A stretch of 64,000 nt of DNA from Melioribacter sp. (GCA_003155655.1 PMDS01000026.1:88161-152160); one strand, 5' to 3'; shown: positions 29,269 through 54,120, numbered from the stretch's first letter. Notes: generated by a model from the letters alone, not told the origin. Made by a program: numbers and translations.

Positions 29269-29341
<73 letters not shown>

Positions 29342-29349
29342 CTAAAAAG

Positions 29350-29385
29350 AAGGTTCTTTTTGATTTTCAGAAAGAACCTTTTTTA
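29350..29385 (+). terminator. Terminator of the initiator tRNA
   Basis: Arms AAGGTTCTTT and AAAGAACCTT form a 10-bp stem with an 11-base loop, followed by TTTTATTTT. It lies 8 bases after the tRNA. Confidence 0.85.
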
Positions 29386-29403
29386 TTTTCCATTAGAGAT
29401 ATA

Positions 29404-29667
29404 ATGAACTATTACGTATACATAATAAAAAGTATTGAAGGGTTTCATTACACTGGTCAGACTTCGGATTTGGAGAAAAGACTTTTTGAGCACAATCATC
29501 AACTTTCTCATTCTACCAAACACGGGCATAACTGGGAAATTATTTTTAAGGAAGAATACACAACACGTTCAGAGGCAATGAAAAGAGAGAAATGGTTAAA
29601 ATCAGGTGCAGGTAGAAATTGGCTCGTAAGAAATTTACCTGGGTGGAGTCCGCCAAGGGCGGAGTAG
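29404..29667 (+). CDS. Small GIY-YIG nuclease-domain protein
   Basis: From ATG 29404 the protein has 87 residues: NYYVYIIKSIEGFHYTGQTSDLEKRL carries the GIY-YIG motifs (YVY and YTG) and the conserved Arg, and TTRSEAMKREKWLKSGAGRNW holds the later Glu. This is the UPF0213-like single-domain family often found next to tRNA genes in Bacteroidota. The frame is open upstream through the tRNA (to 29275), but that extension is only tRNA sequence read as protein. The last eight codons (GWSPPRAE and stop) are coded by the decayed second tRNA copy and its inserted palindrome, so the original C-terminus has been replaced. It may be a mobile nuclease cassette; activity is not shown. Confidence 0.85.
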   Translation: MNYYVYIIKSIEGFHYTGQTSDLEKRLFEHNHQLSHSTKHGHNWEIIFKEEYTTRSEAMKREKWLKSGAGRNWLVRNLPGWSPPRAE

Positions 29668-29783
29668 CTCGTCGGGCTCATAACCCGAAGGTTCTAGGTT
29701 CAATCCGTTAGCTAACGGACTAGCCCTCCCCGACAAAAAACATCGGGACAAGAATGCCCGCAGAGCGGGACAGGCTGCTACTA
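29638..29783 (+). pseudogene. Decayed second copy of the initiator tRNA, broken by palindromes
   Basis: Forty bases (29664-29703) are identical to 29287-29326 of the intact tRNA, covering the D-arm 3' side, the whole anticodon arm and half of the T-arm. GGGTGGAG before them matches the tRNA 5' side, and CTAGCC and GCTACTAA after them match its 3' side. Between these pieces lie extra palindromes: TCCGCCAAGGGCGGA in the D-loop (29649-29663), TCCGTTAGCTAACGGA in the T-loop (29704-29719), and a longer stretch ending in CCCGCAGAGCGGG (29757-29769) in the acceptor strand. The copy cannot fold as a functional tRNA. It follows the GIY-YIG gene and has its own terminator. Confidence 0.8.
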
Positions 29784-30048: not shown

Positions 30049-31245
30049 TTAAGATTGCGTTGCAAATAATTTTTTATAAATTGAAGTTATTTGATACAAC
30101 GCTGAATAGCATGCTTTACTTTTTCCCATATTCCAAGGATTATGAAATGCTATTTCCATATAAACTGATTTTGCTGCTTGTATCAACTCAGCTTCATTGA
30201 ATTGTTTAGGAGCTTCAATAATCCATCCTTTTTTGGTTTTTCTTGCAAAAGCAGAGAGGGAAGCTAAAATAGGAAAGATAATACCATCTGGAACTTCTTC
30301 AATATTATTGCCTTCATCTCTCTTAATAGAACGTAATTTAGTCCCAGAAAATCCCTGATGGGTTTTCCATTTTTCATAAAGGTCTTGAGCTTGTGATGCA
30401 ATATCTAAATAGAATTGATATAATTCCAAATATCTTGAATGATCAATGGCTTTGGGATCCTTTGCCTTTTCAAAAATTTCCTGAAAATCTTTCAGACATT
30501 TAGTTTTCATACTATAAGTGTACACTTTATTCATTTCGCCAGGCTTTAACCAAAGTTCCTCTGGTGCTAATGCAGCTATAACTTGCAAAAGTCTTTCTGT
30601 TTTTATGTAGTCTTCTGATAACTTTGTTTCAGATTTCTGTAGCTGGGAGCCTGGCTTTTTTACTTGCAAATATTTTTCAAGTTCATCAAGTTGGCCTAAC
30701 CTTCCAGCTATAGATATGGTCATAACATCATTCTGAAAATTTCTTGCGATTGAAATTTCGGCAATTAGATCTTCATCATCAGTAACAATTATTTCAAATT
30801 TGATGTGAAAAGGGAAATGTTCGGCTTCGAACTTTTCTGACTTAAGAGAATCATAAAAATCTTTTATTACCCCTTGTGTTTGAGAACCATTAATAATGCT
30901 TGGTTTGTGTAGTAATACTTTTTTTTCTTTCTCGTCAATTTCACATCTTCTTGCTACTATTACGATTCCGCTATTCAAGGCAGAAAAGTTTTGGGGATTA
31001 TTTCGAATAGTATCCTCAATTGCTTTGTGAACTTGAGTTGGCCGTCTTCTTTTTTTCCCTTCTGCTTCCAACATATAGTCTCTAACATTTTCGTCTGTTG
31101 GTAGACCAATTATATTTTTAGCCTCAGTTTGGCCTACATAAACTTTCCTGCTATTATCAAGATCCTCAGGAGAAGTTATGTTTCTAATTGAATGATAAGA
31201 AATGGAAAAAGTTTGATTGGGGTGATGCACTTTTGAAGTGTTCAT
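30049..31245 (-). CDS. AIPR-family protein (abortive infection phage resistance)
   Basis: The 398-residue protein has the AIPR core: NNPQNFSALNSGIVIVARR at about 82-100 and LLHKPSIINGSQTQGVI at 111-127, then ISIARNFQNDV at about 165-175. AIPR proteins were first named from plasmid-borne abortive infection; some relatives sit in restriction or defence islands, and their mechanism is not established. The start ATG at 31245 has a strong AAAGGAG seven bases upstream. About 100 bases before it a dyad (TTACTT TTC AAGTAA, 31345-31359) could be an operator. It lies between the tRNA array and the integrase relic, a typical place for imported defence genes, with no partner on its strand. Confidence 0.8.
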   Translation of the reverse strand: MNTSKVHHPNQTFSISYHSIRNITSPEDLDNSRKVYVGQTEAKNIIGLPTDENVRDYMLEAEGKKRRRPTQVHKAIEDTIRNNPQNFSALNSGIVIVARRCEIDEKEKKVLLHKPSIINGSQTQGVIKDFYDSLKSEKFEAEHFPFHIKFEIIVTDDEDLIAEISIARNFQNDVMTISIAGRLGQLDELEKYLQVKKPGSQLQKSETKLSEDYIKTERLLQVIAALAPEELWLKPGEMNKVYTYSMKTKCLKDFQEIFEKAKDPKAIDHSRYLELYQFYLDIASQAQDLYEKWKTHQGFSGTKLRSIKRDEGNNIEEVPDGIIFPILASLSAFARKTKKGWIIEAPKQFNEAELIQAAKSVYMEIAFHNPWNMGKSKACYSALYQITSIYKKLFATQS

Positions 31246-31612
31246 TTTGAACTCCTTTGTTAACTGTTTAGGCCATCCATTTATTGCCGCCAGAAACTTT
31301 CTGAGGCTGAATGAACCAACTATTTAAAAATAATAAAATTTGAATTACTTTTCAAGTAACTTAATTACTTCTGTTTATACATACTGGGAGTGAAAGTTTG
31401 GCTTAAATTTCCATAATCTATCCGCCCGTTGTCATTGTTTTGTCTGTTGTCATTCTTTCAGTTTAAGTTTGTTTGATTTAAAATAAATGGGTAAGCTACA
31501 AAAAGTAAAAAAGAAAAAGTTATTACAATGAGTGGAAAAGTAAAGTCGGTTCTTATAATTCCTTTTAAGCTAAGCGTAGACCAACCAGTGAAGTTATATT
31601 CTATCTTATTAA

Positions 31613-31804
31613 ACTAGAATACTAAATCAAAAACCAATCATCAAGCAATTCAAAGAAGCTAAAAGAAAATCTAATTTAAATGAAAAAAATCGTTTACATT
31701 TTTCACGTCATTCCATTGTTCCTGTCATAACTCGGGAAGTAGTTTCTCTATATATTATAAAAGAGTTATTGGGTCACGAGGATCTGTCTATGACTAAAAT
31801 TTAA
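31613..31804 (+). pseudogene. C-terminal relic of a tyrosine recombinase/integrase
   Basis: This frame reads KQFKEAKRKSNLNEKNRLHF, then SRHSIVPVITREVVSLYIIK, then ELLGHEDLSMTKI and stop. That is the C-terminal half of the phage/XerC-type integrase domain: the HxLRH box (here shortened to SRHS), the SLYxIKELLGHEDLSxT box with the second His, and then a stop where the TxxY nucleophile should be. A stop at 31610 closes the frame upstream, and no N-terminal half is recognisable in 31246-31612. The gene is dead but shows that an integrating element once sat beside the tRNA. The rest of the 31246-31857 gap holds nothing I recognise. Confidence 0.8.
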
Positions 31805-31857
31805 AGCAATTTCAATACAGTGGACTTAAAAAGTGCAATAATTCTTTAAAAGAATAT

Positions 31858-32085
31858 TTAATATTTGATAATGAAGAAACTTTTTGTTTTTGGTGAATAT
31901 TTAATAAATCCACTCTTTTCATAATAATTTAAATAATTGTCTAGGGTCTGTGTTGTAGAAATGCGTAGAACCCCACCATCATTTAATATTTTATTTTGCA
32001 GTTCATCGTATGAAAAACAATCTTTTTCAACGATAAAACTAACAACAGTATTTCGTGCAATTTCAAATTTTTTGCACATTTTCAA
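31858..32085 (-). CDS. Small winged-helix-like protein coupled to the HD gene
   Basis: The 75-residue protein reads CKKFEIARNTVVSFIVEKDC, then a DELQNKILNDGGVLRIS segment, then TQTLDNYLNYYEKSGFIKYS. The helix-turn-helix spacing, and the final LNYYEKSGFIKYSPKTKSFFII pattern of recognition helix followed by a beta-hairpin wing, resemble a winged-helix domain. No family name is offered. Its ATG overlaps the stop of the HD gene by four bases, so the two are translationally coupled. It could be a repressor, an antitoxin or a DNA/RNA-binding subunit of the HD enzyme. Confidence 0.65.
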   Translation of the reverse strand: MKMCKKFEIARNTVVSFIVEKDCFSYDELQNKILNDGGVLRISTTQTLDNYLNYYEKSGFIKYSPKTKSFFIIKY

Positions 32086-34088
32086 CCTCTTTGTTTTATA
32101 TCTAATTTATTTATAAAAATTGTATACAATTGTTCAATTATCATTTTTTGTAATTCTGTTGGTTCAAACTCTTCTTTATAATATACAAAGAATTGTACCG
32201 AATTATTTCTATCCAAAAATAAATAATCAGGGACCCCAGAAACTTCTCCAAATTTGTATTCTTTCCTTTCAAATCCATTGTCTTTTATGTCAATTAAAGA
32301 CATGTTAAAATTAGCAATCTTTAGATTTGTTGGACGACAAAGTACTAATTTTCCAATTAATCGGAAATGTTCAAATATTTTCTCTGTCCATTCATCTATA
32401 TTTTGATTCATAAACTCAACAACACATTTGCCAAGATCATTTACTTTTTTCGTAAAATCCATTTTCCCTAATGAGTCATTATCGAATTTTCCAGACAAAG
32501 ATAAAGTTTTATAAAACAATTTTTGGTATTTATTTTGAGAAAGGTCATTGTTTTGAAGGATTTCGTATACTTTTTGACCTAATAGTTCTGAAAATGCAGA
32601 ATATTCGTAATCTTTTTTCCAGAGACTTTTTATTTCCTTAGAATTAGTAAAGAATTCATTAAGAAGTATTTTTAAAACATTAAAGTCTTTTTTCCCTGCC
32701 GAGAGAATTAACTCTAGCATTTTCCCATTTAATAAAGTTACTAACCAAAAATCATTTAATTGTGCAAATTGATAAAATAGCTTTTCAATATCATCTTTAT
32801 TTTCAGTTATTACATCCGTATATGATATTATTTCAAAGATCGTATTAACCATGTTTTCAAGGCTATATTGCCTTACTGATAAATTTATTCTCTTTTTACT
32901 TTTAAATTCTTCATGTAAAAGTAATTCAATGCATTTTTGTAAAATATAATCAAATCTTTTAACTTTATGATGATTGATCATGAATTTATATATTCTATAA
33001 CGGTCAATGAATAGTTCTTGAATATCATTAATGGTTTGTAAGGAAGGGTAAAAGCAAAATTTATCAAGTTTCTCAGTTTCATTATCCTTTTCTTTGTCTC
33101 TTGTTGCAAGACAGAAAAGTTTAACTATTCTTTCTATATCTCCACTTTTATCAAATAAACCAGAAGCATGCCCATCTCTAATTGAGTATTCCATTTTATC
33201 AGCATCAAAATTGCCGTCTATTATTTCGAAAATTGATAATAATTTACTATCCACTCCTTTGAAAACTTCATCTAAAATATTTATGATAATTTGATATGTG
33301 AAGATTTCATAAATTTTTTGATTTTCATCTTGAGTATCACACGTATAGCTACAATATGTTAACAAAACCTTTATTAGTTTTTTCCCAACCGCTTCATGAA
33401 TTTCTTTATTAGTGCTTTTGAAAAATTTATGGAATTTTTCAGTATAATCCTTTTCTTTTTGTGTTTTCTTCACTTTATTTGGTAAAGAATTACCATTTAG
33501 CTTATTGTATACTTCCGACAAAGCAAATTCGGTTAGGTGGCTAAAAGGAAGGTGTCCGAAGTCGTGTAAAAGAGCAAAAAGTCTTAATGATTGAAGTAAC
33601 AATAAGTATGTAGAATGTAAACTAGTGTCTGTAAATAAATAATTATTGATTGTAGTATGATTGCAAAAGTTCCATCCCATAATATTATATAAATATTTCA
33701 GATAATCATCATTTTTTAATAAAGATTTTTGCACCTTACTTTTATTTATTTTTTTTAAATAATTTTCTTTTTCAACACCATGTACAATTGGTAAATCAGT
33801 ACTGTTCACTATCAAATCAATAATATTTTTACATTGCTTTAAATACTTTTCTAATACATTTGGGTCCGCATTTGAAATGCCGTAATTAAATAAATTAGTT
33901 GCAATATTCATGACGCCAAGACTATGCGTAAATCTTGAAGTTTTATTTGAAGGGTAAACTAGATATGCACAAGAATTCTGAAGCACATGATGTAAGCGAT
34001 TATATAATGGACTATCCAATACTTTTTCTTCAATATTAGAAAAAGTAGTATTTCCGTGTAGTGGATCTTTAATTAATTTTATTGCCAT
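32082..34088 (-). CDS. Large HD-domain phosphohydrolase (dGTPase/SAMHD1-like superfamily)
   Basis: The 668-residue protein begins LIKDPLHGNTTFSNIEEKVLDSPLYNRLHHV, the start typical of YdhJ/SAMHD1-type HD proteins. The metal ligands are visible: RFTHSLGVM (His55), LLHDFGHLPFSHLTE (His175-Asp176) and FDADKMEYSIRDG (Asp at about residue 305). The C-terminal half (about 350-668) is not recognised. Known relatives hydrolyse dNTPs or other nucleotides, and some act in phage defence by nucleotide depletion. The protein is longer than the usual 400-500 residues. It is coupled to the small gene downstream and driven by a copy of the repeated promoter with a leader of about 270 bases. Confidence 0.85.
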   Translation of the reverse strand: MAIKLIKDPLHGNTTFSNIEEKVLDSPLYNRLHHVLQNSCAYLVYPSNKTSRFTHSLGVMNIATNLFNYGISNADPNVLEKYLKQCKNIIDLIVNSTDLPIVHGVEKENYLKKINKSKVQKSLLKNDDYLKYLYNIMGWNFCNHTTINNYLFTDTSLHSTYLLLLQSLRLFALLHDFGHLPFSHLTEFALSEVYNKLNGNSLPNKVKKTQKEKDYTEKFHKFFKSTNKEIHEAVGKKLIKVLLTYCSYTCDTQDENQKIYEIFTYQIIINILDEVFKGVDSKLLSIFEIIDGNFDADKMEYSIRDGHASGLFDKSGDIERIVKLFCLATRDKEKDNETEKLDKFCFYPSLQTINDIQELFIDRYRIYKFMINHHKVKRFDYILQKCIELLLHEEFKSKKRINLSVRQYSLENMVNTIFEIISYTDVITENKDDIEKLFYQFAQLNDFWLVTLLNGKMLELILSAGKKDFNVLKILLNEFFTNSKEIKSLWKKDYEYSAFSELLGQKVYEILQNNDLSQNKYQKLFYKTLSLSGKFDNDSLGKMDFTKKVNDLGKCVVEFMNQNIDEWTEKIFEHFRLIGKLVLCRPTNLKIANFNMSLIDIKDNGFERKEYKFGEVSGVPDYLFLDRNNSVQFFVYYKEEFEPTELQKMIIEQLYTIFINKLDIKQRG

Positions 34089-34367
34089 ATGTAGGTGGCT
34101 ATATTTTTGATGAGTTCTTTGTTAATAGAAAATTAATATTAACAAAATGATTTATTATTATAAAAAACAATTTTGTGGACGTTTATCCTCACATATTCCA
34201 ATCAAGCAAACTACTTTCTTTAAATCGTTAAAGATTATATGATTGGCTGATCGAACAATTATGTTTATAGCAATTTTTATAAATTTAAATTCGAAAGTAA
34301 TTGCTGAAATGAAATTGTAATTACTGACTTGGTGCCCCATAAATGAAATTACCCTTATATCATTTGC

Positions 34368-34396
34368 AACTTAAATGAATCGAATAAGATTGTCAA
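34368..34396 (-). promoter_or_regulatory. Repeated promoter, copy 1 (drives the HD operon)
   Basis: On the minus strand TTGACA (34391-34396), 17 bases beginning ATCTTATTCG, then TAAGTT (34368-34373) followed by GCAA. The leader carries TTTCATTTATGGGG, shared with copy 2. The HD start is at 34088. The rest of 34089-34770 shows no gene; 34397-34770 holds nothing I can identify. Confidence 0.65.
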
Positions 34397-34770
34397 GAAA
34401 TAATTTGTACTTCTTTCCCTATTATTTTGATCTAACCCTATCCGCTACTTGTTCAATTCTGCTTTATAGACCAGTCACTATGACATTTAATGAAGGTGAT
34501 AATTAATAACTTACTAGCTTAGGATTTAGCATTCATAAAACCTATTAAAACAACCTCGCAAAATTGTATGTGTATTAAGAAATACTAATGCTAAATTGTT
34601 GATTGTCATACATTTAAGAATTACGCCTATCTCCTCTATGTAACCATTTTTCGCTGTTTAGTTTGTCATCAATTCATATAAATAGTTACATTATTTTATA
34701 GATTTTTTTAGATGTATTATTTAATATATTACTTAAATAATTCTTTATAAAATTTTGAAGAGATGTTACA

Positions 34771-35241
34771 ATGGGAAAAGAAATTGAAAGAAAATTCTTA
34801 GTCAAGAATGATGATTGGAAAAACAGGGCTGAGGCATATACATATAAACAAGGATATCTATCTATCGAGGAAGCGAGAAATGTAAGAATCAGAATTATTG
34901 GGACTAAAGGTTTTCTAACACTCAAAGGAAAATCCATCGGTGCTGAAAGATTGGAATTTGAGTATGAGATTCCACTTGAAGATGCAAAAACTATCTTAGG
35001 AAAATTATGTATCCTACCATTGATTGAAAAAACTAGATATAAATTATGTGAGAATAATCTTCTGTGGGAGATTGATGTTTTTGAAGGAATTAACAAGGGA
35101 TTAATTCTTGCTGAAGTTGAATTAACAAATGAAAACCAAAAATTTAAGAAGCCGGAATGGCTAGGGGAGGAAGTAACATACGATCCCAAATATTATAATT
35201 CAAATCTGGTGAACAAGTCGTGTTCATCATGGGACAAATAG
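34771..35241 (+). CDS. CYTH-domain protein (triphosphate tunnel metalloenzyme)
   Basis: The 156-residue protein starts MGKEIERKFLVKNDDW with the diagnostic EIERKFL (residues 4-10). The alternating charged strands of the tunnel fold follow: RNVRIRIIGTKGFLTLKGKS, RLEFEYEIPLEDA, EKTRYKLCENNLLWEIDVFEG and LILAEVELTNE. Enzymes of this group hydrolyse inorganic triphosphate or act on other triphosphates; the short bacterial form is usually a triphosphatase. It is the only plus-strand gene in this part of the accessory region. The start has no strong SD. It does not appear to be in an operon. Confidence 0.92.
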   Translation: MGKEIERKFLVKNDDWKNRAEAYTYKQGYLSIEEARNVRIRIIGTKGFLTLKGKSIGAERLEFEYEIPLEDAKTILGKLCILPLIEKTRYKLCENNLLWEIDVFEGINKGLILAEVELTNENQKFKKPEWLGEEVTYDPKYYNSNLVNKSCSSWDK

Positions 35242-35400
35242 TATTATTCTGATTCTGAAATTAAATATTCAACTTAGAAAAATAACTACTTGCCCGGCTT
35301 TGAATGGAACCACCCCTTGTCCGAACAATTCTCATTTGTCGAGGAATGGCCCTTACCTGAGGCAGGCTCAACAAAAAGTAAAATTATTTTTTATATAAAA

Positions 35401-35524
35401 ATCCCTGCGAACCGAAATTCGATTTAAAGTAAAAGAAAAGAAAATGTTACTGATAATTTGAATCCCCATAAATGAAAACACCCTAGTTCTATAGCAACAT
35501 AATTTAATCGGATAAGATTGTCAA
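35401..35524 (-). promoter_or_regulatory. Repeated promoter, copy 2, with orphan leader
   Basis: On the minus strand TTGACA (35519-35524), 17 bases beginning ATCTTATCCGATTAAAT, then TATGTT (35496-35501) and GC. The leader has TTTTCATTTATGGGG and, farther down, CGAATTTCGGTTCGCAGG (35403-35422), both shared with the leader of copy 5. No minus-strand gene follows before the plus-strand CYTH gene, so the transcript either serves a lost gene or is a small RNA. Apart from this, 35242-35597 holds no gene. Confidence 0.6.
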
Positions 35525-35597
35525 TAATATATTATAGGCCTATATTTCTTTTATTTCATTCCAGACTGTAAGTAAAATTTTCTATTTGAAATAATTT

Positions 35598-36131
35598 TCA
35601 TCCTTCGATACAATAATGAAATGAATAACTGGTATCTATCTTTACATTAAACCTACCATTACTAAATACGGCGGACTTAGTTGTATCTTTTTCAAATTTG
35701 AATTTTAGATTAAATTCCCCGCTGATTATATTCGTCTTTACATCATAAGATTTTATTTCAATATAATTACCTGCATCATTTGTTAGCAGATATTTATTGA
35801 ATGGAATGCACAGTCCTAAATCCCAATAACCTGTCATATCCTTGTTAATTTGGGTGTTGCCGCTCTGAGCAAGTTTAAATGTGAGCATAAGTGTATTTTT
35901 CAATCCTACTCCGGAACCCCTGGTAACAACTTCATTTTCAGTATAACCATTTTTGTTGGTCATTAAAGAAATTTTATAATCGTTTCCGTTATAAGTAAAT
36001 GTCATCCAATTAGAGTTTGCTATTGGATTTATAGGTATAAGTTGCGGCTGTGGTTCAGGTAATGGTTCTGAAGATTTTTCACATCCTATCAATAAAGCAA
36101 TCAACACCAGAATAATTATCCTTATTCTCAA
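35598..36131 (-). CDS. Small lipoprotein of unknown function
   Basis: The protein has a signal segment RIIILVLIALLIGC whose lipobox Cys predicts lipid anchoring, then a Pro-rich stretch (EPLPEPQPQLIP) and a beta-rich body (NWMTFTYNGNDYKISLMTNKNGYT). The frame is open to a TTG at 36155, but that codon abuts the -10 of promoter copy 3. I therefore choose the TTG at 36131 (177 residues), which has AGGA eight bases upstream and lies about 18 bases after the predicted transcription start. TTG starts are uncommon, so this start is moderately sure. No family is recognised. Confidence 0.65.
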   Translation of the reverse strand: MRIRIIILVLIALLIGCEKSSEPLPEPQPQLIPINPIANSNWMTFTYNGNDYKISLMTNKNGYTENEVVTRGSGVGLKNTLMLTFKLAQSGNTQINKDMTGYWDLGLCIPFNKYLLTNDAGNYIEIKSYDVKTNIISGEFNLKFKFEKDTTKSAVFSNGRFNVKIDTSYSFHYCIEG

Positions 36132-36155
36132 CGTATCTTTTCCTGTTTTATTCAA

Positions 36156-36184
36156 AATTTAATTTAATCGGATAAGATTGTCAA
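36156..36184 (-). promoter_or_regulatory. Repeated promoter, copy 3 (drives the 36131 lipoprotein)
   Basis: TTGACA (36179-36184), 17 bases ATCTTATCCGATTAAAT identical to copy 2, then TAAATT (36156-36161), all on the minus strand. Transcription would start near 36149. Confidence 0.65.
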
Positions 36185-36355
36185 TATTAATACAGGGGCA
36201 AGCGAATTACAGAATATTGATGTTTCTAATTAATTTAATTAGTTTTAACATTATAAGTGATGGACTATTCCATTACTGATGTTTTTCTTTCGAATAAAAT
36301 CCATAGGCATTAAAATGCAGACATTGATGTATTTCTTTTCAATAAAGGTAACATT

Positions 36356-36772
36356 ATGAAAAAACTTATTACACTATTATTTCTATTAATTGCAGCCTGT
36401 TCTTCAATACAAACTGGGAATAGTGGTTACCGGTCCAAAACATTTCAGGCAGATTATTCTATCGCATTTACAGCAATTGAAGATTTTTGTAAAGATAGTA
36501 ATTTAAAAATAATTTCGGCTGACAAAGAGCATGGATTAATTAAAACTGATTATGTAGAGTTTGTATCAACTGCTAAAAACTCCAATGGCAACTTACGAAG
36601 CAAGATTAATTTTAATTTATCAAAAGTTGATGAAAATAAAACTAAAGTTACGATAACAATGATAGTCGAAAGGCAAAGCAATAGCTTATGGATGGAGACT
36701 ACGATGGCTGAGGACTGGTCAATGCAGACATACAGAAATTTATGGTATACTATCGGCAGCAAATTAAAATAA
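36356..36772 (+). CDS. Small lipoprotein of unknown function
   Basis: The 138-residue protein has a lipoprotein signal peptide (MKKLITLLFLLIAACSS, lipobox Cys15). Its mature part of about 120 residues has FQADYSIAFTAIEDFCKDSNLKIISADKEHGLIKTDYVEF, then two strands with KTKVTITMIVERQ. The helix-then-strands order recalls small periplasmic or outer-membrane lipoproteins of the BamC/DUF3568 type, but no specific family can be given. It stands alone on the plus strand between two minus-strand genes. Confidence 0.75.
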   Translation: MKKLITLLFLLIAACSSIQTGNSGYRSKTFQADYSIAFTAIEDFCKDSNLKIISADKEHGLIKTDYVEFVSTAKNSNGNLRSKINFNLSKVDENKTKVTITMIVERQSNSLWMETTMAEDWSMQTYRNLWYTIGSKLK

Positions 36773-36842
36773 TTCTTTACCAGGTTATCCCGACAAAATA
36801 AAAGTTATAGAAGAATAGTACTCATCTATAATTAAAAAACTT

Positions 36843-37253
36843 TCATGTCCTTTTGAAAAACAATTCACGGGCATTCTTTATCCGTTCTCTATGACCCAAA
36901 TATGGCCGGGCATAATTATCAAATTCTACAGTTGAAATTTTATTGATGAAATTTGGAACGTCATCCCATACGGATTGGGCTTTTTCTAAATCCGGACAAG
37001 ATTCAAATGAACATTCCGCGCAACTATTCAATTCTTTATTGCGGCAGCAATTACGCGCTTTGCATCCAATACTTGAATGAAATATTTTTTCATCAGGTCC
37101 AAGACAACCGCCGCATGAAATGTGATCAGCAGTCTCATGCAAGTCATAAATTCTCTGCCATGCTTCTACCGTACGCTGCTGATGTTCAAATCCTTTTTCA
37201 CGGCCAAAATACGCCGGGCATTCAGAACATAATACTCCGCAAGCAGACATCAT
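36843..37253 (-). CDS. Cysteine-rich DUF3795 protein
   Basis: The 136-residue protein begins MMSACGVLCSECPAYFGRE, with Cys5, Cys9 and Cys12, and continues HISCGGCLGPDEKIFHSSIGCKARNCCRNKELNSCAECSFESCPDL. In all it has about 13 cysteines in pairs, as in DUF3795 proteins, which probably bind zinc or another metal cluster. The function is unknown. It is a soluble protein without a signal peptide. Upstream there is a TTGACAAT box near the start, but without the rest of the repeated promoter. Confidence 0.88.
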   Translation of the reverse strand: MMSACGVLCSECPAYFGREKGFEHQQRTVEAWQRIYDLHETADHISCGGCLGPDEKIFHSSIGCKARNCCRNKELNSCAECSFESCPDLEKAQSVWDDVPNFINKISTVEFDNYARPYLGHRERIKNARELFFKRT

Positions 37254-37336
37254 AATAGCTCCGTGCTTTAATAAAAATTGTCAAGATTCATTAGCAAACA
37301 GATTTAAACCATGTTCAATTAGAAATATAACTATAC

Positions 37337-38029
37337 TCATTTTAGTTTGAAGATATGCTTGATGCTTTTACCAATACATCCACCAAGTACGCCCAGCAAT
37401 CCGCCCATAATGAAGCCGAGTACAATTAGATGTCCAAAGGCTCCGGCGAATGTTTCAAAAGCAAAATAAGCAGCCATACTTGGGGCGTTACTGTTTGATG
37501 CACGCGCTGCCCACTCAGTAACATTGAGTGGATCTGAGAGGATAAAGTGCATCCCGAATACTATAACTGTTAGAGCCATACAACAAGCAAATAAGCTGCT
37601 AATAAACCCGTTCCATATTCCAACTTTTATTCCGGTGACAAGACTGTCTTTCCGGAAAGCATGTACCGATGAAAATATCAAAATTGAAAAAGCTATAACA
37701 GCCCAGAAAATGTTGTCTATGATATCACGTGCAGGAAGAGGCGGGGCTATGAAATTGTTGATGCTGATTTCGATTGTCCATAATACGCCGAGGGCAATTC
37801 CAAAAATGATGATTCCATTTTTCATTAATAAATTTTCAGGCTTGCTGAACCGGCTGTTGTAAAGCCAAAGAGACATGCCAATGACAACCAAAATTAGAAG
37901 CCCAATGCCGGATTCGATAAGAGTAAATGAAGTATAGCTATAGCGCAGCGCAACAACTCCGGCGAGAAGCGCACCGATGAAAGAAATTATAATTAGCAAA
38001 ATGTAGAGATTTGTTTTTCGTGAATTCAT
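37337..38029 (-). CDS. Multi-pass membrane protein of unknown function
   Basis: From ATG 38029 the protein has 230 residues and about six hydrophobic segments: YILLIIISFIGALLAGVVAL, IGLLILVVIGMSLWLY, NGIIIFGIALGVLWTIEISI, IFWAVIAFSILIFSSVHAF, a segment around FISSLFACCMALTVIVFGMHF, and a last one with FGHLIVLGFIMGGLLGVLGG. The frame is open to 38086, but promoter copy 4 lies in that extension and its -10 covers the ATG at 38059, so the shorter start is chosen. No family is recognised. It follows the alpha/beta hydrolase, with the promoter inside the hydrolase 3' end. Confidence 0.75.
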   Translation of the reverse strand: MNSRKTNLYILLIIISFIGALLAGVVALRYSYTSFTLIESGIGLLILVVIGMSLWLYNSRFSKPENLLMKNGIIIFGIALGVLWTIEISINNFIAPPLPARDIIDNIFWAVIAFSILIFSSVHAFRKDSLVTGIKVGIWNGFISSLFACCMALTVIVFGMHFILSDPLNVTEWAARASNSNAPSMAAYFAFETFAGAFGHLIVLGFIMGGLLGVLGGCIGKSIKHIFKLK

Positions 38030-38054
38030 AGTAGGAACAATATTGTTCTTTTGC

Positions 38055-38083
38055 AACATAAATTTACCGGATAAGATTGTCAA
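38055..38083 (-). promoter_or_regulatory. Repeated promoter, copy 4 (drives the 38029 membrane protein)
   Basis: TTGACA (38078-38083), 17 bases beginning ATCTTATCCGGTAAATT, then TATGTT (38055-38060) and GC, on the minus strand. The -35 box overlaps the stop codon of the upstream hydrolase gene. Confidence 0.65.
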
Positions 38084-39141
38084 CATTTAATTTCCGGCAA
38101 TATCTTCTCAACTAATATTTGGTTGAATAGATCGCGCTCTTCTGTATTTGGCAAATGAGAGGAATTCTCAAACCAATATAAAGTCTTATCAGGTGCTTTC
38201 AGAAAATCAAAATACTTGGCTGATAACAAGGACGGCACTTCGTAATCATGCCTTCCCAGCATAAACCATACAGGCACCTTCAGCTCCGGCACCTGCTCAA
38301 ATAAATTTACATTTAATAATTCCGGGAATAATAATTCCAATGAATCGAATATTCCTCTAAAAAAGTTTATCCGGTCCAGAAAAGTATATTCTGTGGACAA
38401 TACAAGATTCATTATAACATGACCGAATGCGCCAATTTTACTTCCATAATACTCACCGCCATACTTGCCAAGTATATGGCGTTGCGCTATAAATTTCTTA
38501 CTCCACTCGCCTTGATACGGCGGACTACCCATATCAATTAACTTCTTTACAGATTTCACATCGTTGGCTAATTCAGCCTGCTGCAGTGTCCACTCATAAG
38601 AGATTTTTTCGCTTTCCATCACATTGGACATCTGACCAATACCAATATATGCGCTATACAATTCTGGTTTTTGAGAGACAGCAAGTATGCCAATAACACT
38701 GCCCCATGAATGCCCGGCAAGAATTATTTTGTTTTTATTGAACCGCTTCGCCAGGTATTCAGATAGTTCGTTTATATCAGAAACAAATTGATTGATATTC
38801 ATTTTGCTTTTATCGTGTATAGCAGAAAATGATTTGCCGGCGCCGCGCTGATCCCAATTAACAACAGTGAAATATTTTTCAATTGGTTTAGTATTATTTT
38901 TCATCTGGGTCAACTGCGAAGTGCCTGGACCTCCATGTACAAACAGCAGGATAGGGTTATCAATATTTTCTGAACGGATCATAATCCATTGGAATGAATC
39001 ACCGATTTTAATCTTCTTGAGTTCAGCAATACTTTTTTGCCCTTGCGCATCTCCCGCCTTTTTAATTTTCTGTGTATAGCCGGGCATTAATAGAACTACT
39101 AAGATTATCACAATAATGATTACTAAAACAATATACATCAT
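38080..39141 (-). CDS. Alpha/beta hydrolase, proline iminopeptidase-like (S33)
   Basis: The 353-residue protein has an N-terminal membrane anchor (YIVLVIIIVIILVVLLMPG, residues 3-21). The oxyanion motif is HGGPGTSQ (69-76) and WDQRGAGKS follows (96-104). The nucleophile elbow is GHSWGS with Ser145, and the likely acid and base are in LGRHDYEVP and NSSHLPN. The HGGPG and GxSWG pattern is that of prolyl aminopeptidases and related S33 hydrolases; the substrate is not certain. It lies 49 bases after the 1,382-residue gene in the same direction. Confidence 0.88.
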   Translation of the reverse strand: MMYIVLVIIIVIILVVLLMPGYTQKIKKAGDAQGQKSIAELKKIKIGDSFQWIMIRSENIDNPILLFVHGGPGTSQLTQMKNNTKPIEKYFTVVNWDQRGAGKSFSAIHDKSKMNINQFVSDINELSEYLAKRFNKNKIILAGHSWGSVIGILAVSQKPELYSAYIGIGQMSNVMESEKISYEWTLQQAELANDVKSVKKLIDMGSPPYQGEWSKKFIAQRHILGKYGGEYYGSKIGAFGHVIMNLVLSTEYTFLDRINFFRGIFDSLELLFPELLNVNLFEQVPELKVPVWFMLGRHDYEVPSLLSAKYFDFLKAPDKTLYWFENSSHLPNTEERDLFNQILVEKILPEIKC

Positions 39142-39190
39142 TCACCTTTTTTCAATTTTTGTTTACATAGGTATAAATTGATATAACTGT

Positions 39191-42100
39191 TTATCTTAAA
39201 TCTTTTTCTACCAAATAAACTCCATTACCCTTAAGAACAAGAAAGTGAAGACTATAGTTAGTATCAAAAATTATTTTACTACCTTTTATAAAAGCATCAT
39301 ACTGTTGTTCTTCTTTTTTCCCATTTATTACTACAAACCATTTGTCTTCCAATTTGGCGCCATAAGCAAAATGCCTGCTATCGGAACTGAAAATCATACT
39401 TACTCCAATACCATCAAATAGTTTTTCCTCTTTCCTATCTAATATAATTAATCTTTTATTTCCCATCTTAGCGCCATAGGCAACATGCTTGCTATCGGGA
39501 CTGAAAACCGGGGCAGCCGAAGTACCATCATACTGTTTTTCCTCATTCCCATCTAATACAACAAACTCTTTATTTCCTGATTTAACACCATAAGCAACGC
39601 GCTTACTATCAGGACTGAAAATTGGAGTATCTTCCAAAATGGCGTCATACATTTTTTCCTCTTTTCCATCAACAACAACAAATTTTTTATCACCCAACAC
39701 AACAGAATAAGCAAGATGTTTTCCATCAGCGCTGAAAATTGGAGAACCTTTCAAAATGGCGTCATACTGTTTTTCCTCTTTTCCGTCTACTACCACAAAC
39801 CTTCTATCACCCAATCCAGCCGCATATGCCATATGTGCCCCATCGGGGCTGAAAACCGGAGAAGAAAAAATAATATCATACTGTTTTCCCTCTTTCCCAT
39901 CTAATACAACAAACACTTTATCACCCAATTCTGCAGCATAAGCCAAATGTTTTCCATCAGAGCTAAAACTCAGAGCGCCTAAAATACCATCATACCATTT
40001 TTCTTCATTGCCATCAACAACAACGAACCATTTATTTTCAACTTTTGCACCATAAGCCAATCGATTGCCGGATGGACTAAAAATTGGGGTACCTGACAAA
40101 ATGCCGTCATATTGTTTTTCCTCTTTTCCATCTACTACTACACACCTTCTATCGCCCAATCCAGCCGCATATGCCAAATGTTTACTATCCTTGCTAAACT
40201 GTGGAGCACAAAAAATACTATCATACTGTGTTTCTTCTTTCCCATCCACTACTATAAAATTTTTACCTCCAGCTGCAGCACCATACGCGAAACGCTTTCC
40301 ATCTTCACTGAAATTTAGCGTGCCTTTTAAAATGCCATCAAACTGTTTTTCCTCTTTCCCATCAATTGTTACAAACATTTTATCTCCAGATTTTATAGCA
40401 AAAGCCACATGCCTGCTATCCGGGCTAACTTCAAAACTTAACCATGAATTGTCAACTGTTGCAATAAATTTTTCCGATGTTTTTGGTGAAAAAGAATTGA
40501 TTTGATTCGTCACATCTTTTTCTTTGTTCTTTATTCCGGATAACTCATTATTCTTTTGATCATTTTCCGCAGTATTTATTTTATTTGGCGCTTCTTTTTT
40601 ATTTGTTTTTAATTCTGTCTTATTATTTTGAACCGGTTCTTTTGTTTTGGTCTTATTTGTTCCTTCATTTTCATTAACCGCTAATTTAGATTTTACAATT
40701 AACTCAACCCTGTTGTTTTTTGCCCTGCCTTCGTAGAACTTATTATCTGCTATTGGATTAACTTCACCATAACCGACTGATGTCAACCGGCCGGCATCTA
40801 TTCCTTTTGAGATAAGATAATCTTTAAAAATATCAGCCCTTTTTTTGGATATAGTTTGATTATAAGTATCCGCGCCGACATTATCTGTATAACCGCGAAT
40901 CTCAGCATTCAAATTTGGATTTTTCAGTAATGTATCAACTACCTTAATTAGAAATGGATAAGCTTCCGGTGAAAATGCTGAATTATTTAATCCCAACCTG
41001 ACATTAAATACTGTCCATTTAGTTACAGGCGTTTCAATAACCGGCAAAGGTTTTTCTACAACAGGTTCTTTCTTTGTTTCGTTTGCAGCATTTTTATTAA
41101 TTATTTTTTCATTGGCTTTTTTAGGTTCTTTAGATGTGCCTGCAGAAGGTAAAGGTTTTTGGCGGTTTTCAGTTGGTTCTTTCCTATCAGCATTATCATT
41201 AAATCCGGATGATTTAGAAACTCCAGCAGGTAAATTAAATTTTATTAATGCATCTCCTTCTTTAGAAAATGTTTCTACATTAAAACCTAATCCTCCATAG
41301 TAGTAAAAAGAATTATAACCATATTTAACACCAGCCTGAAAATTCAAAGAACCCAGGTTAAAATTCAGATCCCCGCCTGCTTCAATATTTGTATTAAACC
41401 ATTTTATTTTTTCATCATTCTGGTATTTATTTAGAATTTCTATGTTACCGGCATAAATTCTAAAATTTACATTTGATTGATCTTTCCCGGTTAAATAGAT
41501 TGAACTATTATCAGTGGTTATTCCCAGTTTTTTCTCTTCGAAAGAGTCAGTAAGAGGCAGAACCATTCCAAGGCCAAAAGCATAGAAAGTGAAATAACTC
41601 GCATCCTTATTATTCGGGAAGTAGCGGTATCTAACAGCATTTGATGTTAAAGGAATTCCGTACATTGTTCCTATTCCATCTCCTATTTCACATTCAATAA
41701 ATGTTTTATTCTTATCCTTTGCTGACGAAAAGTATTTAGCAGTAAAAATATTTGTAAAAGTATTTGAGGATTTTTTTTCATTAAAACTAAAAGCGGGATA
41801 TTTATCCTTTACCTGTAGTGATTGAAGTTGAAGGCATTGCACCTTTTCGTTTTCCGGAAACGGGGATGATAATATACAAACTGCCGGATTGAGCATTTTA
41901 TCCTCTGCAGCGTCAGATAATACTTTTGCAGTTATCCATTCGGCATATTTTCTTTTTGCTTCGAAAGAATGTGAAATTTCCACAACACTAGTTGAATCTA
42001 AGTATTTATATTGCTTGTGACGGAATTGACTATTTTTTATCAATTCTTCCATGTCCTCAGCCGTAATCCTGGTGGAGGCATCCATGCTTTTTTGACGGTA

Positions 42101-43339
42101 TTCTTCTAAATATGTGATTGCATAAAGCAATAAATAATAATTGTAATTAAAATTTCTATCGGTTTTATAAATTCCGTTTTTATTTAATTGTTCTTCAGCA
42201 TATTTCTTCAGAATGGTATCCTTTTCCAAATACAATTCAACAGATTGTTTATAACTATTTATTAAAAAATTATTTTTGACTCTGACTGCAAATTCATTTT
42301 GCATATTTTCCCAGTTTATGGCCAGATCTTTTTTGCGGTTAAAGAGAGAAACATAAAATTGTGATTCCAAAAACTTTTTAGTGCTTGTAGCCTCTTCCTG
42401 CGCAGATAATTTGGCAATTGATTCATTCCCAGTATTCTGATTTTCCTGTTCAGGTTTTTCAACCGCTGATTCTTTTGGAACATTTTGATCTTCCTGTACA
42501 GATTTTTCAACCTTTGATTCTTTGTTAACATTTTGCGGCGCCTGTGCTGGTTTTTCAATAGCATATCCCTTTGAAGTTTTACCCGGGGTAATATTTAATT
42601 CAATTACTTTCCTGATAAATTTTTCAGAAATATTCTGTATACAATTAAAAAAACAATACTTACATATTGATTCCAGATCCTGATGCGTAGTAAATGTTTT
42701 AACGCCGCTCAGAAAGCCGGAAGGAGTCATTTCCCCTCCATAAGAATATGTTTCGGCTTCATCAAAAATTAATCTTATCGAATGAGAAAATTCCTCTGTA
42801 TATATACTTTTCCCGGTCCGGGCATCAATCATTTGAAATTCCACAGCCAAATCGTAATCATGGTAATAGAAATGCTTATCAATTAAAGATTCTAAAGCAA
42901 ATGCAAAAGCTCCTGCTTCAGTTAAGTAACCATAGATCATTATTTCGGGATTGCTGAAAAGAAATAATCCACCAATAGCAGTGAGAAGCGGAAGTGTGAA
43001 GGTTCCAATTGTTACACCGCGGTCATAATTTATTTTAGTTACACGCCCCTGAACGATATAATCAACATCCTTCGCTTCAGACTTATTATCAAATGCATGA
43101 ATATCTTCAAATGCCGATGTATTATATGCAACTGCCGCAAATAAATCCCTGAATTCATTATTGAACTTACCTGCGAATGAATAATTTGAAGGTTCATTTT
43201 TGAACGGCAAAATTCCTACTTTAATTTTACTCGTTTCAAATTGAGGATATTTATAAACCGGTAAGTTTGGCCCGCAACCGGTGAGGAAAAGAAATAATAA
43301 AACAGTAATAGATAGACAAAATGATCTGATTAATTTCAC
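39191..43339 (-). CDS. Giant lipoprotein: OmpA-like domain plus ten tandem propeller repeats
   Basis: The 1,382-residue protein has a lipoprotein signal (LFLFLTGC). A region with LGILPF-like KVGILPFKNEPSNYSF and Asp/Tyr-rich strands follows, then a short Glu/Gln/Asn repeat (KSVQEDQNVPKES and variants, about 255-310) and a possible barrel-like segment (about 560-720). Next come an OmpA-family peptidoglycan-binding domain (AEIRGYTDNVGADTYNQTISKKRADIFKDYLISKGI, RAKNNRVEL) and a low-complexity Lys/Asn linker. Ten tandem repeats of about 38 residues fill the last 400 residues, each of the form DGKHLAYAAxxGDKxFVVVDGKEEKQYD, like WD40-like PD40 blades. It probably links the outer membrane to peptidoglycan and displays a propeller. 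A shared promoter lies about 270 bases upstream. No single known protein has this order of parts. Confidence 0.85.
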   Translation of the reverse strand: MKLIRSFCLSITVLLFLFLTGCGPNLPVYKYPQFETSKIKVGILPFKNEPSNYSFAGKFNNEFRDLFAAVAYNTSAFEDIHAFDNKSEAKDVDYIVQGRVTKINYDRGVTIGTFTLPLLTAIGGLFLFSNPEIMIYGYLTEAGAFAFALESLIDKHFYYHDYDLAVEFQMIDARTGKSIYTEEFSHSIRLIFDEAETYSYGGEMTPSGFLSGVKTFTTHQDLESICKYCFFNCIQNISEKFIRKVIELNITPGKTSKGYAIEKPAQAPQNVNKESKVEKSVQEDQNVPKESAVEKPEQENQNTGNESIAKLSAQEEATSTKKFLESQFYVSLFNRKKDLAINWENMQNEFAVRVKNNFLINSYKQSVELYLEKDTILKKYAEEQLNKNGIYKTDRNFNYNYYLLLYAITYLEEYRQKSMDASTRITAEDMEELIKNSQFRHKQYKYLDSTSVVEISHSFEAKRKYAEWITAKVLSDAAEDKMLNPAVCILSSPFPENEKVQCLQLQSLQVKDKYPAFSFNEKKSSNTFTNIFTAKYFSSAKDKNKTFIECEIGDGIGTMYGIPLTSNAVRYRYFPNNKDASYFTFYAFGLGMVLPLTDSFEEKKLGITTDNSSIYLTGKDQSNVNFRIYAGNIEILNKYQNDEKIKWFNTNIEAGGDLNFNLGSLNFQAGVKYGYNSFYYYGGLGFNVETFSKEGDALIKFNLPAGVSKSSGFNDNADRKEPTENRQKPLPSAGTSKEPKKANEKIINKNAANETKKEPVVEKPLPVIETPVTKWTVFNVRLGLNNSAFSPEAYPFLIKVVDTLLKNPNLNAEIRGYTDNVGADTYNQTISKKRADIFKDYLISKGIDAGRLTSVGYGEVNPIADNKFYEGRAKNNRVELIVKSKLAVNENEGTNKTKTKEPVQNNKTELKTNKKEAPNKINTAENDQKNNELSGIKNKEKDVTNQINSFSPKTSEKFIATVDNSWLSFEVSPDSRHVAFAIKSGDKMFVTIDGKEEKQFDGILKGTLNFSEDGKRFAYGAAAGGKNFIVVDGKEETQYDSIFCAPQFSKDSKHLAYAAGLGDRRCVVVDGKEEKQYDGILSGTPIFSPSGNRLAYGAKVENKWFVVVDGNEEKWYDGILGALSFSSDGKHLAYAAELGDKVFVVLDGKEGKQYDIIFSSPVFSPDGAHMAYAAGLGDRRFVVVDGKEEKQYDAILKGSPIFSADGKHLAYSVVLGDKKFVVVDGKEEKMYDAILEDTPIFSPDSKRVAYGVKSGNKEFVVLDGNEEKQYDGTSAAPVFSPDSKHVAYGAKMGNKRLIILDRKEEKLFDGIGVSMIFSSDSRHFAYGAKLEDKWFVVINGKKEEQQYDAFIKGSKIIFDTNYSLHFLVLKGNGVYLVEKDLR

Positions 43340-43473
43340 TTTAGTCTCACAATTAACAAGTTAGAATATGTTTTTGCCTTTATTCCGCAGGTTCATCAAA
43401 TTTCATTCTGATAAACTATTGGCTGTATACATTTTGAAATTTATTTGAATGAGTATGAACATTTTTATTTTAT

Positions 43474-43644
43474 ATTCCTGTGAACCGAAATTCGAATTTA
43501 TCAGCAGATTTATAGCCGCCTTGTCCGCCTTTTTTTTTGCGGACTATAGTTGAGAAAAGAAAAATATAATTATTGATTTGTGACCCCAAGATAGAAACTG
43601 TCCATGTTTGTTGGCAACTTAACCGAAACGTTTAAGATTGTCAA
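43474..43644 (-). promoter_or_regulatory. Repeated promoter, copy 5, with long leader (drives the giant lipoprotein)
   Basis: TTGACA (43639-43644), 17 bases beginning ATCTTAAACG, TAAGTT (43616-43621) and GC, on the minus strand. The leader has TTTCTATCTTGGGGTCA, a hairpin with arms GTCCGC and GCGGAC (43523-43544), and TTCGGTTCACAGG (43477-43489), matching the orphan leader of copy 2. The start codon of the gene is at 43339. Confidence 0.65.
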
Positions 43645-43812
43645 TATTCATAAGATAGTTTCGTTTTTGAGTGTAATAACTCTTTAGAAATGTCAGTAAT
43701 TCGACTCAATAGAAATGTCAGTAAAAATTAGTTTAGGTATCTCAAAAAAGAGGGATACTTGACATGGAAGGAATATTGACAATGAGCGCAAAAGAAGTAG
43801 ACCGATTATAAA
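43640..43812 (+). mobile_element. Remnant of an ISNCY (IS1202-like) insertion sequence, left end
   Basis: The segment has TGTCAATATTC at its edge, two direct repeats of TAGAAATGTCAGTAA (about 43681-43695 and 43710-43725) as in transposase-binding ends, then ATGGAAGGAATATTGACAATGAGC. That reads MEGILTMSAKEVDRL and then stops at 43809. MSxKExxRL is the start of ISNCY-family transposases as I know them. Only the first 15 codons remain. The following 43813-44131 holds no gene and no clear structure. Confidence 0.55.
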
Positions 43813-53565: not shown

Positions 53566-54120
53566 ATGGGACTAAGAGGACGAAGTAATTTAGAAGGAGA
53601 ACATTTCTTTTTTGTAACAACAACAGTTGTCAACTTCAATAACGTTTTCACGAATGATTTATATTGTGATATCCTAGTTAAGAATATCAAACATTACCAG
53701 GAAAGTTATAATTTCGAGATTATCGCATACTGCATAATGCCATCACATTTTCATTGGATAGTAAAAACTGATCCAGTCAGTGGAACAATCTCATCAATCA
53801 TGAGAGACATTAAGAAGTACAGTGCATGGGATATTATGGATCAGTTAAAAAAGGAAGCATCTCCGTTAATTAAGAATTTTACTTGTTATATAAAAGAGTG
53901 TCAAAAACACCGGTTCTGGATGCCCAGGTTTGATGATGATGTAATTAGAGATCAAAAAATGTTATGGACAAAGATAAAGTACATTCATAACAATCCGGTC
54001 GAAGCTGGTATTGTAGGGAATCCGAAAGATTTTAAATATTCAAGTGCAAGAAATTATATCCTTAATGATCAATCAGTTTTGTATGTAGAGAAAAGCTGGG
54101 TGGGAATAGAAATAATATAA
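53566..54120 (+). CDS. REP-associated tyrosine transposase (RAYT, Y1/TnpA_REP)
   Basis: The 184-residue protein has the Y1 transposase (IS200-like HUH) fold: FFFVTTTVVNFNNVF, AYCIMPSHFHWIVKT with the HUH-type His61 and His63, and a likely catalytic Tyr in SIMRDIKKYSAWDI (Tyr85). FWMPRFDDDVIRDQKMLWTKIKYIHNNPVEAGIVGNPKDFKYSSARNYI is the C-terminal signature of the family. RAYTs are single-copy domesticated relatives of IS200 that mobilise REP hairpins rather than themselves. Matching inverted REPs flank this gene at both ends. The start ATG at 53566 is preceded by GAGGGGTAAG. Confidence 0.92.
   Translation: MGLRGRSNLEGEHFFFVTTTVVNFNNVFTNDLYCDILVKNIKHYQESYNFEIIAYCIMPSHFHWIVKTDPVSGTISSIMRDIKKYSAWDIMDQLKKEASPLIKNFTCYIKECQKHRFWMPRFDDDVIRDQKMLWTKIKYIHNNPVEAGIVGNPKDFKYSSARNYILNDQSVLYVEKSWVGIEII

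Follow-up and report, generated by a model that had tools for sequence, protein, structure and literature searches.

In Vibrio and Treponema integrons, gene-less promoter cassettes carry sense-strand promoters that drive the next cassette (PMC11014356, PMC6557892). The class 1 integron platform (Pc/attI1) presents a promoter, the translation-enhancing small ORF-11, an att site, and the cassette gene (PMC8876359, PMC9410878), while the cmlA cassette has its own promoter and a 9-aa leader peptide, for which inducible attenuation was shown (PMC8876359). Chlorobi and Ignavibacteriae have already yielded complete integrons (PMC9024848).

The module family described here is probably a variant, not previously described, of such known cassette promoters. 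As in the promoter cassettes of Vibrio and Treponema, the promoter would serve the next gene in the array, and one integrase of the present data set (IntI of locus L185) lies on the cassette strand, as it does in Treponema. However, those promoter cassettes were found by assay rather than as one sequence family, whereas here a single homologous module, its leader ORF conserved, stands in front of one unrelated gene after another; on the left it is bounded by the -35 box rather than by an att core. The order of promoter, small ORF, att site, and cassette gene is that of the class 1 platform, but a class 1 integron has one platform, whereas here many dispersed copies occur without intI, and the leader (~24 codons) is not ORF-11. 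A cassette-borne promoter with a leader ORF is also found in cmlA, although there it belongs to one gene and here it is common to unrelated genes. Near-identical promoters before non-homologous genes of one genome are said to have been catalogued in 2012 by Matus-Garcia, Nijveen, and van Passel as putative mobile promoters. Their catalogue reportedly holds neither a leader ORF nor a link to att sites, and in both respects the present modules would differ from it.

The window (the whole analyzed stretch of DNA, 64,000 nucleotides) comes from a Melioribacter sp., whose T9SS sorting domains suggest a host near Chlorobi/Ignavibacteriae. Within the genus, recN, tRNA-Met, and the RMMBL metallohydrolase cluster show synteny. 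Since the gap between recN and the next conserved gene measures ~30 kb here vs. ~1.2-8.5 kb in relatives, the five copies sit in a variable island (29343-59593, between recN/tRNA-Met and the RMMBL metallohydrolase gene). At 29269-29720, the DNA behind tRNA-Met contains a GIY-YIG gene (29404-29667) as well as a partial tRNA copy with an insert (GCTCGTCGGGCTCATAACCCGAAGGTTCTAGGTTCAA), which marks the tRNA as a site of insertion. The island also holds the relic of a tyrosine-recombinase C-terminus, not IntI-like by eye (31640-31810, plus strand, ending in VVSLYIIKELLGHEDLSMTKI and a stop codon), and an IS200/Y1-type transposase gene (53566-54120). We consider it fairly probable that the five sites belong to an integron-type cassette array in this tRNA-Met island and are its promoter/leader modules, Pc-like and now decayed.

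The five promoters (c1 to c5) lie on the minus strand at 34368-34396, 35496-35524, 36156-36184, 38055-38083, and 43616-43644, spanning 9.3 kb, and the spacing from TTGACA to the -10 box is exactly 17 bases in all, as an earlier note on this DNA had reported. The pattern TTGACAATCTTA-N11-TAWRTT fits all five; its 12-mer TTGACAATCTTA is invariant, and the remaining spacer varies. The -10 box had been described as TAWGTT-like and mostly followed by GC, which holds in general, but copy c3 reads TAAATT without GC. Elsewhere in the window, the TTGACA-N17 layout was confirmed at the tRNA-Met promoter (29142) and the csp promoter (59555; same spacing, with GATAAT as -10), and TTGACA-N17-TANNTT has six matches, namely the five sites and the tRNA-Met promoter. 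A search of the whole genome (4.62 Mb) for the 12-mer with a -10 box, as had been proposed, recovered the five copies and only one weak extra copy (TTGACAATCTTA-N11-TA, n = 6, five in this locus; none for the reversed-pattern control). The sixth match, C58:26215, has no start codon in register. Genome-wide, TTGACA-N17-TAWNTT is enriched about 3-fold (70 vs. 23 in the reversed control) and is therefore probably a genuine promoter form in Melioribacter sp.; we infer from their sequence that the modules are active promoters.

The similarity exceeds the promoter. Copies c1, c2, and c5 can be aligned over more than 80-100 nt downstream, and each of the five has a start codon 53-56 nt downstream of the initial T of TTGACA (ATG 34340, ATG 35469, TTG 36131, ATG 38029, and TTG 43589, minus strand). 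The -35 and -10 boxes at 17-nt spacing are followed by GTTGC in c1, c2, c4, and c5, but not in c3. A leader ORF with an MGxQ-type N-terminus begins ~55 nt after the -35 box in c1, c2, and c5, while the start in c3 and c4 is that of the downstream gene itself; in these two copies the gene has apparently taken over the module's start codon as its own.

Homologous elements were sought with two profiles. Profile R1, built from four non-window elements taken from further sets of near-identical promoters in this genome, detected elements throughout the genus; its strongest window matches were c1 and c5, and c2 and c4 matched more weakly but in register. Profile R2 comprised 24 elements of other loci without any window copy and was used as a sequence profile, as RNAalifold found no conserved base pair in the 24 elements. 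With filters off, the four best R2 matches in positions 29000-60000 were c1, c2, c5, and c4, all in register (next match, 8.7 bits), and c3 was not distinguishable by R2 in this range. In an independent nhmmer run, with the reversed window and 20 shuffled windows as controls, c1 and c2 scored far above all controls, and c5 and c4 were in register near the control maximum. The nearest relatives of c1 to c5 are locus L183 and, in another family of the order, locus L184, both of which fall into one group with them (support 0.97); alignment scores of L184 to c1, c2, and c5 are 146, 155, and 105, vs. shuffle maxima of 74, 71, and 64. Sequence comparison places c1, c2, c4, and c5 in the promoter-leader module family.

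Among 196 relatives examined, the family is present in 11 of the 12 genus genomes, with 14 R2 matches in the genome studied here, and outside the genus convincing matches occur in two genomes only (G045 and G135). The exact window pattern had no match in GTDB contigs or IMG/VR, and a related pattern has a single GTDB match, inside a TonB-receptor gene. In 44 of 45 family copies the next gene lies on the same strand; in the remaining copy, a short antisense ORF precedes a same-strand gene at +310. The genes behind the modules are mostly unrelated to one another and include those for a cytidine deaminase, an AAA ATPase, HNH-like, methyltransferase-like, Gp49 toxin-like, TPR, and T9SS-secreted proteins, a phosphatase, and a dehydrogenase.

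The family consensus consists of TTGAYA, a 17-nt spacer, TTTAAGTT, often a dyad GTTGCANNNGCAAC, then AAAGGNNAACCCGCA, and then an ORF of ~24 codons that begins with ATGGGG (commonest form MGKQIQIILSCKHSRIISRKTLYI). A start codon occupies the leader position in 33 copies, and in 31 of these the frame runs without a stop over 19 codons or more, vs. 9 and 5 for the other two frames. Among codons with a single difference, synonymous changes reach 1.37 times the expectation in frame 0, whereas the other frames are depleted (0.69 and 0.88); the sequences are related, which makes this supporting evidence only. These features show a leader ORF conserved across the module family as a predicted coding frame, and the leader is presumably translated.

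Copying of the module is seen in genome G001, where two modules (L113 and L120) share ~97% identity along 170-180 nt; the similarity ends abruptly on the left at ATTTGACA, and their flanks are unrelated. Given this identity between unrelated neighbors on both sides, the copying was recent and local.

In the window, module c1 (34262-34397, minus strand) contains TTGACA/N17/TAAGTT at 34368-34396, a UTR with AAGGG, and the leader region (R2 over 31 kb: 36.3 bits and E = 8.9e-11; nhmmer, run against 20 shuffled controls: E = 3.7e-7). Its leader ORF (34158-34340, minus strand; 60 aa, beginning MGHQVSNYNFISAITFEFK) starts at the family position and has lost the family stop codon. Downstream, on the same strand, lie a gene for an HD/dGTPase-like protein of 668 aa (32082-34088; PADLOC dGTPase, 1.9e-5), a small ORF (31858-32085), and an AIPR/AbiU-like gene (30049-31245; Pfam AIPR, 2.4e-25; PADLOC AbiU, 3.4e-17), which together (30049-34088) form a probable candidate defense operon behind c1.

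Module c2 (35387-35525, minus strand; promoter 35496-35524) matches R2 with 34.7 bits (E = 2.9e-10; nhmmer E = 9.6e-6) and has a leader ORF of 33 aa (MGIQIISNIFFSFTLNRISVRRDFYIKNNFTFC, 35368-35469, minus strand), which shares the motif RISVR..F with L184. The earlier note saw all five promoters in front of genes or a leader; c1, c3, c4, and c5 do precede genes, but c2 has no convincing same-strand gene downstream, and the CYTH gene found there is antisense to its promoter. In c3 (36156-36184, minus strand), the promoter part alone is recognizable (R2: 3.2 bits), and its first 25 nt are identical to c2; its lipoprotein gene (35598-36131, minus strand) has a probable TTG start at 36131 (beginning MRIRIIILVLIALLIGC, with AGGAAAAG upstream). 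Module c4 (37987-38084, minus strand; promoter 38055-38083; R2: 17.8 bits, E = 5.1e-5) precedes a membrane protein gene (37337-38029, minus strand) with a probable ATG at 38029. The likeness of this protein's start (SRKTNLYI) to the leader C-terminus was discarded as evidence because every shared codon differs synonymously. Module c5 (43549-43645, minus strand; promoter 43616-43644 and leader; R2: 20.9 bits, E = 5.8e-6) has a leader ORF of 39 aa with a TTG start (43470-43589, minus strand; beginning MGSQINNYIFLFSTIVRKKK), in which NNYIFL is shared with L184, and lies upstream of a gene for a giant lipoprotein with OmpA and PD40 propeller repeats (39191-43339, minus strand; Pfam).

A possible link to integrons comes from the surroundings of other family members. 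An attC-like site follows about a third of the modules, while about two thirds have no recognized att site. Seven modules have a type-A site (ending TTAATTAATAGTTAGGC) within ~300 nt downstream on the same strand, vs. ~0.005 expected from site density (0.05 if there were ten times more sites), and a type-B site lies behind eight or so more. The seven type-A sites are training rows of the site profile R3, so a first count of attC sites beside modules was dropped as a measure of sensitivity for being circular, and the density argument alone was kept. In 16 of 20 type-A loci inspected, a gene starts 13-62 nt after the core (GTTANRY), as at cassette boundaries; a strict GTTRRRY is present in only part of the 20. 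Two stem subtypes fold individually, but RNAalifold gave no consensus fold and there is no clear R'' box, and the sites are therefore termed attC-like.

Locus L185 of G001 has a shortened module immediately ahead of an intact IntI (TIGR02249, 434.7 bits vs. a cut-off of 265), with a start codon of this integrase at the leader-ORF position; downstream, a hairpin site that ends in AGTAATAGTTATATGC separates the integrase gene from the next one. This IntI was found in one genome only. Some modules outside the window are, as judged from sequence, associated with att-like sites and an IntI. In the genome studied here, TIGR02249 had no match over the cut-off, and the better integrase matches on C34 and C33 were rejected as XerD-like and XerC-like. 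The same genome has an IntI relic of N- and C-terminal pieces at L059 (G000:C91), beside an att-like site and a paralogue of the giant lipoprotein's propeller part.

L184 and L183, the nearest relatives of the window copies, are each followed by a type-B site. In the window, the best R3 match has E = 1.3, the type-B profile gave no match, TWATAGTTANRY does not occur at c1 to c5, and a classical attC scan (RYYYAAC..GTTRRRY) found nothing near the five sites. An XerCD-dif/pdif-like module was considered and rejected by eye: TTATGTT is present, but there is no left arm at 6 bp. The window array would be old and decayed, with att sites that are no longer recognizable, and the window copies would be of integron origin.

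The most likely role of the module, comparable to the Pc/ORF-11/attI1 arrangement of class 1 and to the Vibrio and Treponema promoter cassettes, is that of a portable Pc-like promoter whose leader is translated. Its parts would be a promoter of the sigma-70 type (TTGACA-N17-TAWGTT), ~20 nt of UTR, and a short leader ORF that starts ~55 nt downstream of the -35 box, and it would supply transcription, and probably also translational help via the leader, to any gene downstream. In cassette arrays of the genus, it would be followed either by an attC-like site and a cassette gene or by an integron integrase and an att site. Copying would be local, with the -35 box as a sharp left boundary, so that neighboring copies in an array are near-identical and co-oriented. 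We propose more tentatively that, in this integron lineage, promoter and conserved leader peptide could be a replicating unit of their own, multiplied along arrays, with the leader as a translation starter or attenuator.

A mobile promoter/leader repeat could also have spread by ordinary duplication or gene conversion, with integron sites nearby since both gather in accessory DNA. This explanation is possible, if clearly less probable than decayed cassette-array modules. It would fit the many modules without an att-like site, the 15 independent R3 matches with no R2 module nearby, the window itself with modules but no att site found, and a left edge at -35 instead of the GTTRRRY core; against it stand the seven same-strand type-A sites at a density far above expectation, the further type-B sites, and the module that drives IntI directly.

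The earlier note had offered a shared operator or a duplicated module as the cause of the conserved spacer, and one regulon as a consequence. The duplicated module stands, with promoter, short UTR, leader ORF, and genus-wide homologues; the operator and the regulon find no support. An operator for a common transcription factor in the spacer would account for an invariant 12-mer within an otherwise variable spacer, yet arrays of this one family differ in their spacers (ATCTTATCCG in the window; CACTCAATTT, GATATCTC, and others elsewhere). The only dyad of the family, GTTGC-N4-GCAAC at the -10/start region, is intact in ~9 of the 24 copies from the genus but in none of the five in the window, and it was rejected as their common operator. 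The downstream genes are unrelated, the pattern is confined to one 9.3-kb locus, and the same genome has other near-identical promoter sets with conserved spacers before unrelated genes (C12, C68, C131, and C34). One regulon is thus improbable; the window spacer most likely owes its conservation to the five sites being copies of a single longer module, multiplied within this array.

Even less probable is that the transcripts begin with a structured regulatory RNA, as a riboswitch or an attenuator would be: the leader is conserved over ~100 nt and a first four-sequence model had weak hairpins, but no conserved pair was found by RNAalifold in the 24 elements, and Rfam had no relevant match. Least probable is the end of an insertion element or MITE. 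The earlier note had envisaged an insertion-element end with copies in random places, which is refuted by the 44 of 45 copies that face a same-strand gene; despite the sharp left edge and the dispersed copies, there is no inverted end or transposase, and IMG/VR gave no match to the exact pattern.

How cassettes far from Pc are expressed is an open question in integrons, to which the Vibrio promoter cassettes gave a first answer. A replicating promoter-leader unit, if confirmed, would make cassette expression independent of distance from the platform, and captured genes may arrive with their own on-switch, as modules lie in several cases beside integron-type gene-capture sites. A homologous, countable family with a defined left edge, near att-like sites and an intact integrase, would make cassette expression testable by sequence in a little-studied lineage, and the module could serve as a marker for recently captured accessory and defense genes. 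Should the integron link fail, the family would still be a clear multi-genome case of promoter copying before unrelated genes.

Further promoter copies were noted in the same genome. At L104 (G000:C48:149 and C48:4802, minus strand), two promoter modules 4.65 kb apart are 98% identical over 200 nt, but are not of the window-module family. A promoter pair with TTGACAAATTAC (L103 and L209; G000:C21:2593, 5857, and 6073) is 81% identical over 133 nt, with a type-A att-like site behind the second copy. Finally, a seventh, degenerate copy (TTGACAATCTTGCCTGCTTCGGTTATGTTGA) precedes a TlpA-like gene at L060 (G000:C111:15241), where its neighbors are a small HTH gene and one that probably encodes a restriction endonuclease (both assigned by eye).
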